From contig CADACC010000008.1 in the NCBI GenBank assembly GCA_902786275.1, positions 1 to 52,171 of the forward strand: a stretch of 52,171 bases of DNA, read 5' to 3'. Below the pieces are notes generated by a model, which had not been told where the DNA came from, made no database searches, and saw nothing but the letters and a program-made list of their open reading frames with translations. This document shows, piece by piece, positions 5,991 through 12,437 of this stretch. A program made the position numbers and the translations under genes. Origin of the DNA: an uncultured Erysipelotrichaceae bacterium (GTDB lineage Bacteria > Bacillota_I > Bacilli_A > RF39 > UBA660). Numbering within the stretch: position 1 is the first letter of the stretch; every line of letters begins with the position of its first letter.

Positions 5991-6893
5991 TTATTTAACA
6001 TTAAAGTTAACTGATTTTACATTATAAGTATCCATAATAGATAATTTAATGCCATATTTTACTTCTTCATCAATTTTATTAAACTGATTTAAAATATTAT
6101 TATTAAATTCAAGGTTAACTTCATTTTCTTTTAGTTCATAATTCTTTAGAAGAGTAGATGCTGATAAATATGTTTTTAAGCTTGAATCTATATTTTCACT
6201 TGATTTTAACTCTTTAATAATTATTTCAACTTTTTCCCCCTCATCATCTGTTGTAAAGGTAACAGGAATAAAGTATGACTCATCATTATTATTAGCTAAA
6301 AAATAAGTAGTAACTTCCTTAGAATTTTTAATACTGGTAATTTTACTTTTTCTATTTATTCCTATACTTCGGTTAAGGGGAAATGGAAGAGTTCTTCCTG
6401 ATTGGGGAAGGGTAGTAAGTTCTTTGTCATTAATAAATATCTTAACATTATTGATCCCATCAATTTCTGTTAGAGTATATACAATTGATTCAATCATTTT
6501 TTCTTCATCATTTTTTCTAACGTTTAGAATATTTTCATCAAAATAAAGTGATATCGTATCACCATCAATTGTTATATTTAAAACTTTAGTATTTTCTGGA
6601 ATTAAAGATATAAAACCATCAGGTAGGTATTTATTCTTATTTGTTCCATTTATTAATGCATCAACAAGTTCTTTTGCTAATTTAAGTTTATCAGAATTAT
6701 CCACGTAAATATTTGTTCGAGCAACATAATGATTTTTATCAACTAGATATATTGAACTTGTTGATGCTTCTTTATAATATGTTTTCGTTTTAATTTTAAC
6801 ATCTTTTACTGGAAATAAATTTATTGCGAGTACAGTAATTATTAACGCAAATGTTGCAAGCATTATTCTACGTATAGAACTTCTTTTTAACAT
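5991..6893 (-). CDS. gerM: GerMN-domain sporulation protein (GerM-like)
   Basis: 300 residues with an N-terminal membrane segment (about 11-27) and two GerMN-type domains outside. The first (about 45-160) has LAKELVDALINGT, then a beta-rich part ending FINDKEL; the second covers about 190-300. The segment TLPFPLNRSIGIN joins them. In B. subtilis GerM is a sigma-E protein needed to assemble the SpoIIIAH-SpoIIQ channel platform. Here it lies two genes below spoIIIAH, which supports that role. The Cys-less N-terminus indicates a membrane anchor rather than a lipoprotein. AGGTGAT precedes the ATG by 3 bases. Confidence 0.85.
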   Translation of the reverse strand: MLKRSSIRRIMLATFALIITVLAINLFPVKDVKIKTKTYYKEASTSSIYLVDKNHYVARTNIYVDNSDKLKLAKELVDALINGTNKNKYLPDGFISLIPENTKVLNITIDGDTISLYFDENILNVRKNDEEKMIESIVYTLTEIDGINNVKIFINDKELTTLPQSGRTLPFPLNRSIGINRKSKITSIKNSKEVTTYFLANNNDESYFIPVTFTTDDEGEKVEIIIKELKSSENIDSSLKTYLSASTLLKNYELKENEVNLEFNNNILNQFNKIDEEVKYGIKLSIMDTYNVKSVNFNVK

Positions 6894-6909
6894 ATTATCA
6901 CCTAATAGA

Positions 6910-6938
6910 AATCTATGAAATTAAATAAAAAAATATAA
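6910..6938 (-). promoter_or_regulatory. Candidate sigma-E promoter of the gerM-like gene
   Basis: On the minus strand TTATATT (6938-6932), a 14-base spacer and CATAGATT (6917-6910). The B. subtilis sigma-E consensus is KMATATT, N14-15, CATACAnT, so each box has one mismatch. The -35 box sits inside the gerE terminator stem, and the predicted transcript start lies very close to the ribosome site. Confidence 0.45.
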
Positions 6939-6957
6939 CTGATTAGTTATATTTTTA
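6924..6957. terminator. Terminator after gerE
   Basis: AAATATAACT and AGTTATATTT form a 10-bp stem with loop GATT, flanked by A/T runs on both sides. Read from the minus strand it ends with a T-run and overlaps the gerE stop codon. Confidence 0.75.
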
Positions 6958-7153
6958 TACTTCCAATTTTAATAAGTTCAACTAAAGCTTGACTTCTACC
7001 TTTAGCTCCAAGTTTTTGTATGGTGTTTGATATATGATTTCTAACGGTTTTTTCACTAATACCTAGTTTACTAGAAATGTCCTTAGTTGAATAGTTTTTA
7101 ACAAGGAGTTCAAATATTTCTTTTTCTCTTTTTGTTAAAATTGTATCCTTCAA
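6947..7153 (-). CDS. gerE: Late sporulation transcription factor GerE (LuxR-type HTH)
   Basis: A small DNA-binding protein consisting almost only of a LuxR/FixJ helix-turn-helix. LTKREKEIFELLVKNYSTKD and GISEKTVRNHISNTIQKLGA, then KGRSQALVELIKIG, match B. subtilis GerE nearly residue for residue. GerE acts last in the mother-cell cascade, turning coat genes on or off after sigma-K. I chose TTG at 7153: AAAGGAAGG lies 6 bases upstream, and the candidate sigma-K promoter would start the transcript near 7180. An ATG at 7171 would give 74 residues, the B. subtilis length, but with almost no leader. Confidence 0.93.
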   Translation of the reverse strand: MKDTILTKREKEIFELLVKNYSTKDISSKLGISEKTVRNHISNTIQKLGAKGRSQALVELIKIGSIKI

Positions 7154-7187
7154 AATCATCCTTCCTTTCATTAATAAAAAGCTATAA

Positions 7188-7216
7188 TATAATATGTCGG
7201 ATGATTTTTTAATGTG
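7188..7216 (-). promoter_or_regulatory. Candidate sigma-K promoter of gerE
   Basis: On the minus strand CAC (7216-7214), a 17-base spacer and CATATTATA (7196-7188). This is an exact fit to the B. subtilis sigma-K consensus mAC, N16-17, CATAnnnTA. In B. subtilis gerE is transcribed by sigma-K, and sigK is in this window. Confidence 0.65.
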
Positions 7217-7219
7217 TAG

Positions 7220-7711
7220 TTATTTTTCCTCAAACTTAACAGTAATATATTTATTTTCTTTAATATTTTCTTTAATCTTTCTTAAAACACTATTGGCTAT
7301 TTCGTTGTTATGAGTATTATTTAGTATTGTAACGTTTATATCTTTATCATTTATTTTAACAAGGTTATTATAATTAAATTCTTTTTTAATAATATTTGAT
7401 AGTTCAATTTCTTTAGCTTTATTTTGGCTTATAACTTCAAGTGAGTCATATGCGTTATTCTTTTCTTCTAAAGTAGCCTCACTATCAAGTAAGATGTCTT
7501 GAAGTTCATTTATTTTTGTGACAGTCACCTCATCATTAGAAATTTTTAAAACATCTAAGCTATTGTTATCATTGTTGCTAGCTTTAATGGTTTCACTCGA
7601 TGCAAAAGTTTTCATCATTAAAGAAGTTTCATCACTTTTAAAGTAATATATACTTAAAATGATAATAAGTGAGAAAAGTGTAATAAACCACAAGCTTTGT
7701 TTGTTAATCAT
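7220..7711 (-). CDS. spoIIIAH: Stage III sporulation protein AH
   Basis: A mother-cell membrane protein that pairs with forespore SpoIIQ across the two membranes and forms a ring of the SpoIIIA-SpoIIQ channel. 163 residues: an N-terminal helix (about 7-25) with the family start NKQSLWFITLFSLIIILSIY, a linker, then a YscJ/FliF-like domain (about 70-160) containing DSEATLEEKNNAYDSLEVIS and ending ITVKFEEK. B. subtilis SpoIIIAH is longer, mainly in the linker. Here the gene stands apart from any spoIIIAA-AG genes visible in the window and lies upstream of gerE and gerM. AAGGAGG precedes the ATG. Confidence 0.9.
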   Translation of the reverse strand: MINKQSLWFITLFSLIIILSIYYFKSDETSLMMKTFASSETIKASNNDNNSLDVLKISNDEVTVTKINELQDILLDSEATLEEKNNAYDSLEVISQNKAKEIELSNIIKKEFNYNNLVKINDKDINVTILNNTHNNEIANSVLRKIKENIKENKYITVKFEEK

Positions 7712-7831: not shown

Positions 7832-8074
7832 TTGAAAAAAGTGATTGTGGTAAGACAACATGACTTAGCCGATTGTGGACCAGCTTGTTTATCATCAATT
7901 TTGCAACATTATGGGGGTTTTGTTCCTATAGAGATGATTAGATTAAACGCAAAAACAAATCAAAACGGTACAAGCGCATATAATCTTGTTAAGACAGCTG
8001 AAAAATACGGTTTAACAACAAAGTCACTAAAACTTGGTAATTTTAAAGACATAAAAAATTATCTTTTCCATTAA
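7832..8074 (+). pseudogene. C39 peptidase half of a frameshifted bacteriocin exporter
   Basis: N-terminal fragment of a peptidase-containing ABC transporter of the LagD/ComA type, which cleaves double-glycine leaders during export. Catalytic Cys15 sits in DLADCGPACLSSILQHYGG, with the oxyanion Gln9 before it. The frame ends at 8072-8074, just before the rest of the peptidase domain. The sequence continues in the next frame from 8068 (PLIAHVRL, then NHFIVIYGV with the catalytic His and MDPSRG with the Asp). One base is missing, in A6 at 8053-8058 or T4 at 8064-8067. The start is TTG after AGGGAG. Alone, this fragment cannot be an active peptidase. Confidence 0.88.
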
Positions 8075-8151: not shown

Positions 8152-9873
8152 ATGGATCCATCAAGAGGATTAGTTAAACTAAGTGAAGATTATTTTCACA
8201 AAATATCTACAAACATCTTTCTTATGTTCCATCCAGAAAGTAAATTACCACAGTATGAAAGACCAACAAAGATCGTAAAAATGCTTAAAAAATATCTAAA
8301 ATTAAATAAGAAACAAATAACAAAAATAATTATATTAAGTATATTTACAACTGTTTTGGGTATTTTGATTGGTTATTACATAAAGATAGTGTTTGCTATA
8401 TTAGATAAATATAAAACATTTAAATATGTAATAATTTTACTTATTCTTTATTTACTTTTTATTATTATAAAAAACTTATTTGAACAAATAAAACTAAAGT
8501 TATTAATTATATTTAATAGAAATGTAAGTGAAGATTTATACCATTTCTTCATTAATAAAATTTATAATTTCCCTTTAAATTTTATTAAATCAAAAACTAC
8601 TGGAGAGGTAATGACACGGTTTGATGAGTTAAATATGATTAATGAAATTATATCTAGCATTATTATCTGCTTTATTATTGATTTAATAACAGTTTTGATT
8701 GCATTAGTAGTATCTTGCTTAATCTCAATCAAATTAACGCTTCTTGTTTTATTATTTATGCTATTATATGTCATTATTTCTGTTCTTTTTAATAATCCGA
8801 CATTAGAAAAGATTAATGATAACATTAATGCAGCAACAAACTTTAATGATAAAATTGTTGATAGCATTAATACTATTATTAGCACTAAATATATAAATAA
8901 TGAGCATAACATGATTAAAAGATTAAACACCTCGCTTGATAATTACCTTAATAATTATGTAATATTTGAAAGATTTTTAAATCATATAAACATTATTAAA
9001 AATGTAGTAACTGAAATATGTATGTTATTAATTTATACATTCGGTGCATATATGTGCTATATAAATAAGTTTAATATATATGATTTATTTATCTATATAG
9101 TTATTATTGAAAATATAATTAATCCCATAAAAGAAATTGTTGACTTTGTTCCCAAGTTACTATTTATTAAATCGTCCGTATATAGAATCAATGAGTTTTC
9201 TTTAATTAAGGAAGAAAACATAAATGGATGTGAATTTATAAATAATGACATATTTGTGGATAATCTTTCGTTTGCTTATAATGATATAGATTACGTAATA
9301 AGAAATTTATCTCTTAATATAAAAAAAGGAGAAAAGATACTTATTCAAGGATCATCAGGTTCAGGTAAAAGTACACTGTGTAATATTTTATCTAGACAAC
9401 TTGAATATACGAAAGGAAATATCAAAATAGGTAATGTTGAAATAAATAGCATTAAACTTGATGATTATCGTAAAAACATTACGTATATTGGTCAGAAAGA
9501 TTCTCTTCTTACAGATACTATTCTAAATAACATTAATTTTGAAAGGAAGGTATCGGATAAAGAATTCTTAGATATATATAAATTATGTGAGATTGATAAA
9601 ATAGTTAAGAAAAAATACAATGATTTAAGTACTGTAATTAATGAATCTTCGAGTAATATATCAGGTGGAGAAAAGCAAAGAATAATTTTAGCTAGAGGAT
9701 TAATTAATAGTGGTTCTATCATAATCTTGGATGAAGCTTTAAGCGAAGTTAATCTAGATATGGAAGAAAGAATATTGAAAAGAATATTTAAACATTTCAG
9801 TGATAAAACTATTATATTTGTATCACATAAAAATTATGGAAACTTATTTAAACGAGTAATTAATATTAACTAA
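8152..9873 (+). CDS. ABC exporter part (membrane and ATPase domains) of the frameshifted bacteriocin transporter
   Basis: The same gene as the C39 fragment, continued in another frame; homologous reading resumes at 8068, before this ATG. It has five or six membrane helices (about residues 45-330) and a full ATPase domain: Walker A GSSGSGKST, signature NISGGEKQR, Walker B IIILDEALSEV and H-loop VSHKN. Intact, the whole protein would be about 680 residues, normal for a bacteriocin-processing exporter. The ATPase part shows no decay, so the break is recent, an assembly error, or bypassed during expression. The double-glycine peptide gene follows 41 bases after the stop. Confidence 0.88.
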   Translation: MDPSRGLVKLSEDYFHKISTNIFLMFHPESKLPQYERPTKIVKMLKKYLKLNKKQITKIIILSIFTTVLGILIGYYIKIVFAILDKYKTFKYVIILLILYLLFIIIKNLFEQIKLKLLIIFNRNVSEDLYHFFINKIYNFPLNFIKSKTTGEVMTRFDELNMINEIISSIIICFIIDLITVLIALVVSCLISIKLTLLVLLFMLLYVIISVLFNNPTLEKINDNINAATNFNDKIVDSINTIISTKYINNEHNMIKRLNTSLDNYLNNYVIFERFLNHINIIKNVVTEICMLLIYTFGAYMCYINKFNIYDLFIYIVIIENIINPIKEIVDFVPKLLFIKSSVYRINEFSLIKEENINGCEFINNDIFVDNLSFAYNDIDYVIRNLSLNIKKGEKILIQGSSGSGKSTLCNILSRQLEYTKGNIKIGNVEINSIKLDDYRKNITYIGQKDSLLTDTILNNINFERKVSDKEFLDIYKLCEIDKIVKKKYNDLSTVINESSSNISGGEKQRIILARGLINSGSIIILDEALSEVNLDMEERILKRIFKHFSDKTIIFVSHKNYGNLFKRVININ

Positions 9874-9914
9874 TGCAATAAAGTTTAATATTTAAGCAGA
9901 AAGGAGAAGTCATC

Positions 9915-10187
9915 ATGAAAATATTAAATGAAAAAGAATTAAAAGATATCTACGGAGGAGGTGTATTATTTAAGATTGCTATGGGTATTATTACTGCTGG
10001 TTCCTTTATTGTGGGAATAGTAGATGGATTAATGAAAAATAGTGAACTAAAAGAAATCTATGGTGGAGCGTTTAGTTTTACAACAACATTTTTTAATTCT
10101 ATCTCTAGATATATAACGACAATAAAAGGTATTGGTGAATCTATTGGTAGTTCGATTAAAAGACTAATTAAACGTAGATACTGTTAA
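9915..10187 (+). CDS. Bacteriocin-like precursor with two double-glycine motifs
   Basis: A 90-residue peptide starting MKILNEKELKDIYGG, a classic leader ending in Gly14-Gly15. A second copy, NSELKEIYGG, ends at Gly50-Gly51. Between them lies a hydrophobic, glycine-rich segment with GIVDG (34-38). After the second lies a 39-residue cationic segment with GESIG (74-78), ending RRYC. GxxxG motifs and cationic tails are typical of class IIb two-peptide bacteriocins. It looks like two precursors fused in one frame; Met40 could also start the second separately. AAGGAG precedes the ATG. No immunity gene is recognisable nearby. Confidence 0.8.
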   Translation: MKILNEKELKDIYGGGVLFKIAMGIITAGSFIVGIVDGLMKNSELKEIYGGAFSFTTTFFNSISRYITTIKGIGESIGSSIKRLIKRRYC

Positions 10188-10189
10188 TA

Positions 10190-10220
10190 AAAAAAGTTGA
10201 TACATTTGTATCAACTTTTC
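10190..10220. terminator. Bidirectional terminator after the bacteriocin gene
   Basis: AAAAGTTGATACA and TGTATCAACTTTT form a 13-bp inverted repeat between convergent genes. Confidence 0.85.
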
Positions 10221-10660
10221 TATTTTCTATTAGGTCTTCTATTTCTTGAAGACCCTTTATTTTGAAAACGTTTTATATGTTCTTCCAGTAATTCTGCTGC
10301 TTCTTTATCTGTAATATTGGGATTACTTTTCATTAACTTTTTGTATGCATCAGTAACACTTGAAGGCTGCTCTTTAACATCAAGATAGTATTGAGTTGTT
10401 TCACCATTAACTATACCAACTATTTTTTCTCCAAGTGATTGTATAGAACCGCACTTAGCACAAGTATATTCATACAATTCTTCACTTGGAACACTATAAT
10501 GATCGATTTTTGAGATGAACCAAATATGGTTACATCTATATTTTTCAGAAATTAAATCCATGTGTTTTTTCATTTTAAGAACATCATTTAATAGCTCTTT
10601 CGATTCTTTTTGAATTTTCTTAGCTGGAATAGGAATATCATTATAATTTACATGACTCAT
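10220..10660 (-). CDS. Small protein with a Cys/His cluster, function unknown
   Basis: 146 residues. An N-terminal helical part is followed by RCNHIWF and, about 35 residues later, CAKCGS, which together could bind zinc (Cys, His, Cys-x2-Cys). The C-terminus is basic (SSRNRRPNRK). No membrane helix. I chose the ATG at 10660 because GGGTG lies 6 bases upstream; the GTG at 10669 overlaps that site. I do not recognise the family. Confidence 0.72.
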   Translation of the reverse strand: MSHVNYNDIPIPAKKIQKESKELLNDVLKMKKHMDLISEKYRCNHIWFISKIDHYSVPSEELYEYTCAKCGSIQSLGEKIVGIVNGETTQYYLDVKEQPSSVTDAYKKLMKSNPNITDKEAAELLEEHIKRFQNKGSSRNRRPNRK

Positions 10661-10757
10661 TTTAAACACCCTTTGTTTGATTTGTTATTCTATCATTTGA
10701 ATATTGATAAATCAATGTTATTTGTAGATATATTAGGTAAAAAACGTAAAAATAAAC

Positions 10758-11067: not shown

Positions 11068-11083
11068 TTTCTAGGTGATAACC

Positions 11084-11329
11084 ATGAAAATTATTGATAG
11101 ATTAAAAAACGGATACCATAATAAATCTTATTTTATATCAGCATATGATAATAGCATCTATCTTATAAATTATAAAGAAATTTTAAACATAAGTGATACC
11201 ACTATTATGGTTAGATTCAATAACTTTAAACTTATAATAAAAGGGAAAGATTTTAGAATTATTAGAAAAAGTAATACTGATGTTGAAATAAAGGGAATCG
11301 TAAGTAATATGGAGATGATTCATGAGTAG
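11084..11329 (+). CDS. yqfC: YabP/YqfC family sporulation protein
   Basis: 81 residues. The pattern YDNSIYLINYKEILNISDTT followed by a beta-rich stretch (LIIKGKDFRIIRKSNTDVEIKG) is that of the YabP/YqfC family, small proteins made during sporulation. The ATG at 11084 follows AGGTGAT by 4 bases; a GTG three codons upstream overlaps that site. Its end overlaps yqfD by 8 bases, so the two are translationally coupled, the order found throughout spore-forming Firmicutes. Confidence 0.88.
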   Translation: MKIIDRLKNGYHNKSYFISAYDNSIYLINYKEILNISDTTIMVRFNNFKLIIKGKDFRIIRKSNTDVEIKGIVSNMEMIHE

Positions 11330-12437
11330 AATTATCTTTAAAGTATCTGATATAAATTACGATTATATATTAAAAAAATTACTTAATTATAATATATCAT
11401 TTAAAGAATTAACTAACAAAAATAATTATTATTACATTTGCATATTAGAAAAAGACTATGAATTATTAAAAAAAATTGATTATAAAAAAGCAGTTATCTT
11501 TAAAAGACATACAGGTTTAAAACATCTTATTAAATTTTTAAACATAAATATAGAAAAATCTATAGTAGCATTTATTGTATTTTTTAACGTTTTTATTTTA
11601 TCGTTATTTATATATAGTGTTGATATAAAAATAAATGATGAAGACTTAAAAACACAAATAAAATATACATTAATAGATTTTGATATTAAACCATATAAAA
11701 GAATTAAACTTTATAATTATATTAATAAGGTAAAGGAAAAAATATTAAATAAATATAAGGATAAGATTGAATGGATTGAAATAGAACAAATAGGTTCAAA
11801 ATATAATATATATGTTATAAAAAAGGTAAATAATAAAAAACAAGTACATAATGATAGATGCAACTATGTCGCAAAAAAAAGTGGAGTTATTAAAAGTGTA
11901 TATGCAAGTAAAGGAGTTTTACTTGTTCAAGAAAATAACTATGTTAAAAAAGGAGATATATTAATTAGTGGAAGTGTAATATATAATGATGAACTAAAAA
12001 ATGAAGTATGTGCAGCTGGTAAGATTACAGGTGAAGTTTGGTATAAAGTTAATATCGAGTATCCTTTCAGTAAAACAAGGTCATATAATAAATATTCAAA
12101 CTTTCATAATATTGAAATAATTCTATTTGGAAAAAAATACAAAATTTTTAAAAATAATAATAAACATGAAATGATTAAAAATAAAATAGGTAATAATACT
12201 ATTGGATTAAATATCTACCAAGGATACAATATAAAAGAAAAAAATGAGAAATACACTGAAAAAGAAGTACTTAATAAATCTCTTAAAAAAGCAAAAGATT
12301 CCTTATTAAAAAAACTACCTAGAAATTCAAGAATAACTGACCAAAAAGTTTTGAAGAAATACATAAATAATGGTAAAATGTATCTAGAGGTTTTACTAAC
12401 CGCAGAAGAGGAAATAGGGGTTGTCGAAAATTACTAG
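11322..12437 (+). CDS. yqfD: Sporulation protein YqfD
   Basis: 371 residues (B. subtilis YqfD is about 398). A cytoplasmic N-terminal part is followed by one membrane helix (about 80-98, IVAFIVFFNVFILSLFIYSV) and a larger outer part containing VAKKSGVIKSVYASKGVLLV and VKKGDILISGSVI, hallmarks of the family. Required for normal sporulation in B. subtilis, where it follows yqfC. Here phoH and yqfF, which normally come next, are absent, and a vanZ-like gene takes their place. Confidence 0.92.
   Translation: MSRIIFKVSDINYDYILKKLLNYNISFKELTNKNNYYYICILEKDYELLKKIDYKKAVIFKRHTGLKHLIKFLNINIEKSIVAFIVFFNVFILSLFIYSVDIKINDEDLKTQIKYTLIDFDIKPYKRIKLYNYINKVKEKILNKYKDKIEWIEIEQIGSKYNIYVIKKVNNKKQVHNDRCNYVAKKSGVIKSVYASKGVLLVQENNYVKKGDILISGSVIYNDELKNEVCAAGKITGEVWYKVNIEYPFSKTRSYNKYSNFHNIEIILFGKKYKIFKNNNKHEMIKNKIGNNTIGLNIYQGYNIKEKNEKYTEKEVLNKSLKKAKDSLLKKLPRNSRITDQKVLKKYINNGKMYLEVLLTAEEEIGVVENY

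Follow-up and report, generated by a model that had tools for sequence, protein, structure and literature searches.

A fused double-leader peptide gene of an uncultured RF39 bacterium as a probable degenerate copy of a conserved two-gene bacteriocin-like locus

The window analysed here, that is, the whole stretch of 52,171 nt of contig CADACC010000008.1 (genome G000), contains an open reading frame (ORF) at 9915-10187 on the + strand, encoding a 90-aa peptide in which two bacteriocin-like precursors are read as one. We consider it highly probable that this is a degenerate, recently broken copy of a bacteriocin-like locus of class IIb type with two genes, and no designed double precursor. The fused precursor is most plausibly a deletion allele and should therefore not be quoted as a novel bacteriocin architecture. 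The intact pair of genes, here called A and B, is near-universal in an uncultured order and apparently undescribed, being unmentioned in the open-licence PMC papers that were searched.

The fused reading frame and its separate counterparts

The original prediction of two double-glycine leaders and two GxxxG cores within one ORF was borne out, and both elements are conserved in the family. In particular, the leader motifs are KELKDIYGG (residues 7-15) and SELKEIYGG (residues 43-51), the GxxxG motifs are GIVDG (34-38) and GESIG (74-78), and Met40 corresponds to the ATG at 10032. The elements of the locus are as follows.

9902..9906, +, strong Shine-Dalgarno sequence (AGGAG) of the fused gene, from the sequence aligned with congeners
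9915..9959, +, peptide A leader, 15 aa, ending in YGG (TIGR01847 bacteriocin_sig match)
9960..10031, +, peptide A core, truncated to 24 aa, with GIVDG kept and (F/Y)LRPLKCRN(Y/R) missing (alignments with congener A peptides)
10030..10032, +, deletion/fusion junction (DNA alignment columns 193-226)
10032..10067, +, peptide B leader, 12 aa, Met40-Gly51, corresponding to the start and leader of gene B, which stands alone in G001, G002 and G004
10068..10184, +, peptide B core, 39 aa, with GESIG and a C-terminal Cys (congener B alignment)
10192..10219, +, intrinsic terminator, 12-bp stem followed by a T-rich tail, from the sequence

The 90-aa ORF and both of its double-glycine leaders are real and do not represent a chance frame, since they are accompanied by a ribosome-binding site, a terminator, an upstream C39 locus, matches to the A and B profiles and family-wide conservation of the GG sites and GxxxG motifs. 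In the NCBIfam scan, the fused ORF scored 24.3 bits against TIGR01847 bacteriocin_sig (cut-off 15.7) and 21.6 against the class IIb family TIGR03949 lactobin A/cerein 7B, just at the cut-off of 21.5. Its halves matched the A and B gene profiles, which have four rows each with the window halves among them, at E=8e-21 and E=8e-34, respectively. A protein search of the genome contigs and viral contigs with the 90-aa protein returned no relatives, and a PDB sequence search gave no match; a weak match in its own genome (C2:39730, E=0.053) spans neither leader and was set aside. The single-sequence AlphaFold2 model, of moderate confidence (pLDDT 74, pTM 0.50), places helices at residues 15-39 and 43-88; it would be consistent with helical peptides, is not decisive and says nothing on their pairing. 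A mixed A and B alignment was dropped as folding input, as the A peptides had landed on the B half.

In three of the four other genomes of the genus (G001, G002 and G004), the named congeners being metagenome-assembled genomes and two of them originating from water buffalo rumen and omasum, the two halves are adjacent separate genes, spaced by -4 to +1 nt. Gene A encodes 48-50 aa with the C terminus ...GLxDG(F/Y)LRPLKCRN(Y/R), and gene B encodes 51-52 aa, 67-75% identical to the window B over the full precursor. Its start corresponds to Met40, in agreement with the suggestion that this residue opens a second peptide. The fourth genome, G003 (83% complete), is without both peptides and without a full-length exporter match. 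DNA alignment revealed that 26, 34 and 31 nt are missing in the window with respect to G001, G002 and G004, respectively, between GGATT (10030) and AATG. The missing stretch comprises the C-terminal tail of A, its stop codon and the spacer, and as a result A and B are read as one frame.

Conservation and surroundings of the intact pair

The B and A profiles matched in 350 and 349, respectively, of the 386 family genomes at a loose threshold (E<=0.1). With a wider B profile at E<=1e-4, matches were found in 270/288 genomes of the order sample, which comprised this family only, covering 97/102 genera and 231 of the 245 good-quality genomes, usually with one B match per genome. Outside the family, the A profile retrieved in the class sample only three other genomes, at query positions 1-29, which are mostly leader.

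From the fetched loci we extracted 60 distinct A-B pairs, drawn from the best-scoring matches and not as a random sample. A and B are separate genes in all 60; in 14 of these they share the same frame, always with an intervening stop. Thus the homologues of the two halves are separate genes, in the congeners as in the wider family, and the second YGG is indeed conserved in them, yet as the leader of a gene of its own. Both leaders carry GG, the tail of A retains P and C of the [RN]PxxC motif lost in the window, and a Cys occurs within the last 8 residues of B, each in 60/60 pairs. A GxxxG-type motif is found in 58/60 A and 59/60 B peptides, and the mature peptides contain exactly one Cys in 58/60 (A) and 57/60 (B) cases, the family consensus being GxxDGxxRPxxC for A and GRSxGSSIRR..C for B. 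Gene B is under strong constraint; dN between congeners is 0.15-0.24 for B versus 0.43-0.46 for yqfD.

The single-ORF layout, detected as one 101-aa frame holding A and B, was found in the window's genome only, among the matches listed for the A, B and wider B profiles. Other fusions had been suspected from long open frames that surround A or B (G026, G079, G141, G248, G289, G382 and G008), where the coordinates place A and B in different frames.

A C39 ABC exporter lies upstream of A in 26/26 wide loci, which comprise one set of 6 and one of 20. The rpsU gene follows the pair in 11 loci of the set of 20, and a SpoIIIAH-like gene, a small GerE/LuxR-type HTH gene and a Germane-domain gene occur upstream in several. 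An ORF of 126-158 aa whose N terminus apparently forms a membrane segment (for example, L010:2937-3317 and L011:2858-3238) separates the exporter from A in 13 loci of the set of 20 (L078-L097) as well as in G002 and G004, and is absent in G000 and G001. It gave no Pfam match above cut-off in the three examples scanned, and we regard it as a candidate immunity or export-accessory protein. In the window, a 149-aa ORF (10220-10669, - strand) with a possible zinc ribbon (weak, E=0.22) lies between the peptide gene and rpsU, and was not seen there in G001, G002 or G004.

The operon in the window is flanked by sporulation-type genes at 5991-7711 (- strand) and 11075-12437 (+ strand), comprising Germane-domain, GerE/LuxR-type HTH and SpoIIIAH-like genes and then yqfC-like and yqfD genes, and a capacity for sporulation has been predicted for the RF39 order (PMC10868615). 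It is possible to hypothesize, tentatively and as the less probable option, that this whole order of uncultured gut Bacilli has, in the intact A-B pair and its C39 exporter, a vertically inherited core system of two peptides and not a dispensable bacteriocin, the pair possibly forming a Cys-Cys covalent heterodimer and possibly being tied to sporulation, given that yqfC/yqfD, spoIIIAH-like and Germane-domain genes flank the pair in this genus.

The exporter lesion and the explanations for the fused gene

The prediction of a class IIb-type pair served by a C39 exporter was supported. The exporter locus lies directly upstream and in the window is divided as follows.

7832..8074, +, N-terminal fragment of the C39 peptidase/ABC exporter, 80 aa, TTG start, with the catalytic-Cys half (DCGPAC) (Pfam Peptidase_C39, 1.4e-17)
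8059..8065, +, site of a one-base frameshift near a T run (frames end and resume at 8059 and 8062, with 2 nt between)
8152..9873, +, rest of the exporter, with the end of the C39 domain and the ABC membrane and ATPase domains (Pfam ABC_membrane 8e-26, ABC_tran 1.2e-27)

When compared with the intact 679-aa exporter of G001, residues 1-76 are encoded in one frame and residues 78-679 in another, one base being missing. The C39 His motif (NHFIV) falls 3' of the frameshift, between the two exporter ORFs, so that neither of them has a complete C39 catalytic site as assembled. Programmed frameshifting was thought unlikely, as the congener exporters are single ORFs. No C39 domain other than the split one was found elsewhere in the G000 assembly, a draft of 68 contigs and 89.6% completeness from which another exporter could be missing.

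These features would be accounted for by a locus with the order C39 ABC exporter, peptide A and peptide B. In the intact copies each peptide has its own GG leader, and the exporter, by analogy with class IIb systems, would cleave the two precursors and release the peptides as a GxxxG helix pair. In the window, the loss of roughly 30 nt would have taken away the C-terminal tail and stop codon of A together with the spacer, so that A and B became fused in frame, and an independent one-base frameshift would have split the C39 domain of the exporter. Since the A tail is deleted and the C39 domain is split, the fused protein probably does not give rise to a functional pair by processing. The two lesions lie within 2.3 kb in a single operon, and one of them deletes residues kept in every other pair examined. 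This fits a recent loss of function, and we infer that the lesions are real in the organism and abolish function.

A different and unlikely explanation is that the draft assembly is wrong at the deletion, at the frameshift or at both, and that the real strain has the usual two genes and an unbroken exporter. The fragmentation of the assembly is compatible with this view, and losing one base close to a run of T is a common type of sequence error, which also counts against decay, as does the in-frame state of the fusion, for which the chance was one in three. Furthermore, no relaxed constraint in G000 was apparent from the pairwise dN/dS values for A, B and the exporter, which implies that the lesions are young, or are assembly errors, or that B still works. 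However, a clean deletion of 26-34 nt is atypical of short-read error, and two lesions would have to fall so close together in one operon. A check for general sequence error against the genes of G001 and G004 also argues against it: of the 44 G001 genes that could be matched, over about 41 kb of the window, none but the exporter is split, and the G004 comparison agrees.

It is very improbable that the fusion is functional, with the 90-aa peptide being exported and cleaved behind Gly15 and Gly51 into a short A with the B leader as its tail plus B, or with B alone made from Met40: the frame is open, both GG leaders, the ribosome-binding site and the terminator are intact and the modelled helices fit helical peptides, but the P and C of A conserved in 60/60 pairs are gone, the assembly yielded no intact C39 exporter, the layout is in no other genome examined, and no strong ribosome-binding site precedes Met40 in the window sequence. 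Thus the original proposal of a purposeful single precursor of new layout was not upheld, considering that all 60 other pairs are two genes, that the invariant A tail is lost and that the assembly has a single C39 exporter, which is frameshifted.

Relation to known two-peptide bacteriocins

Two-component unmodified bacteriocin clusters have already been reported in rumen isolates of the Hungate1000 collection; they resemble the present loci in that two core peptides follow each other and carry GG and GxxxG-type motifs, and differ in that the study concerned cultured isolates, with RF39 unmentioned (PMC13289728).

The GxxxG motif in both cores is a feature of class IIb bacteriocins (PMC8538875). 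The intact relatives share with this class two short, adjacent GG-leader precursors, GxxxG in both cores and an adjacent C39 exporter, and by analogy their pair may act in a class IIb-like manner. Against TIGR03949 lactobin A/cerein 7B (cut-off 21.5), the A peptide of G052 reaches 32.3 bits, and a match to NF038034 lactococcin G-beta stays below cut-off. Different from class IIb, the B peptide of G052 barely passes the TIGR01847 leader model (16.2 versus 15.7), and neither of the two B peptides scanned passes a class IIb model. The window departs further from the class, its two precursors being fused, with A truncated by the deletion of its tail, and its C39 exporter being frameshifted as assembled. 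The family as a whole is distinguished by the usually single conserved Cys near the C terminus of each mature peptide, and by a near-universal, usually single-copy constancy of the pair in the order (270/288) that is unusual for a bacteriocin, the distribution of class IIb systems being patchy.
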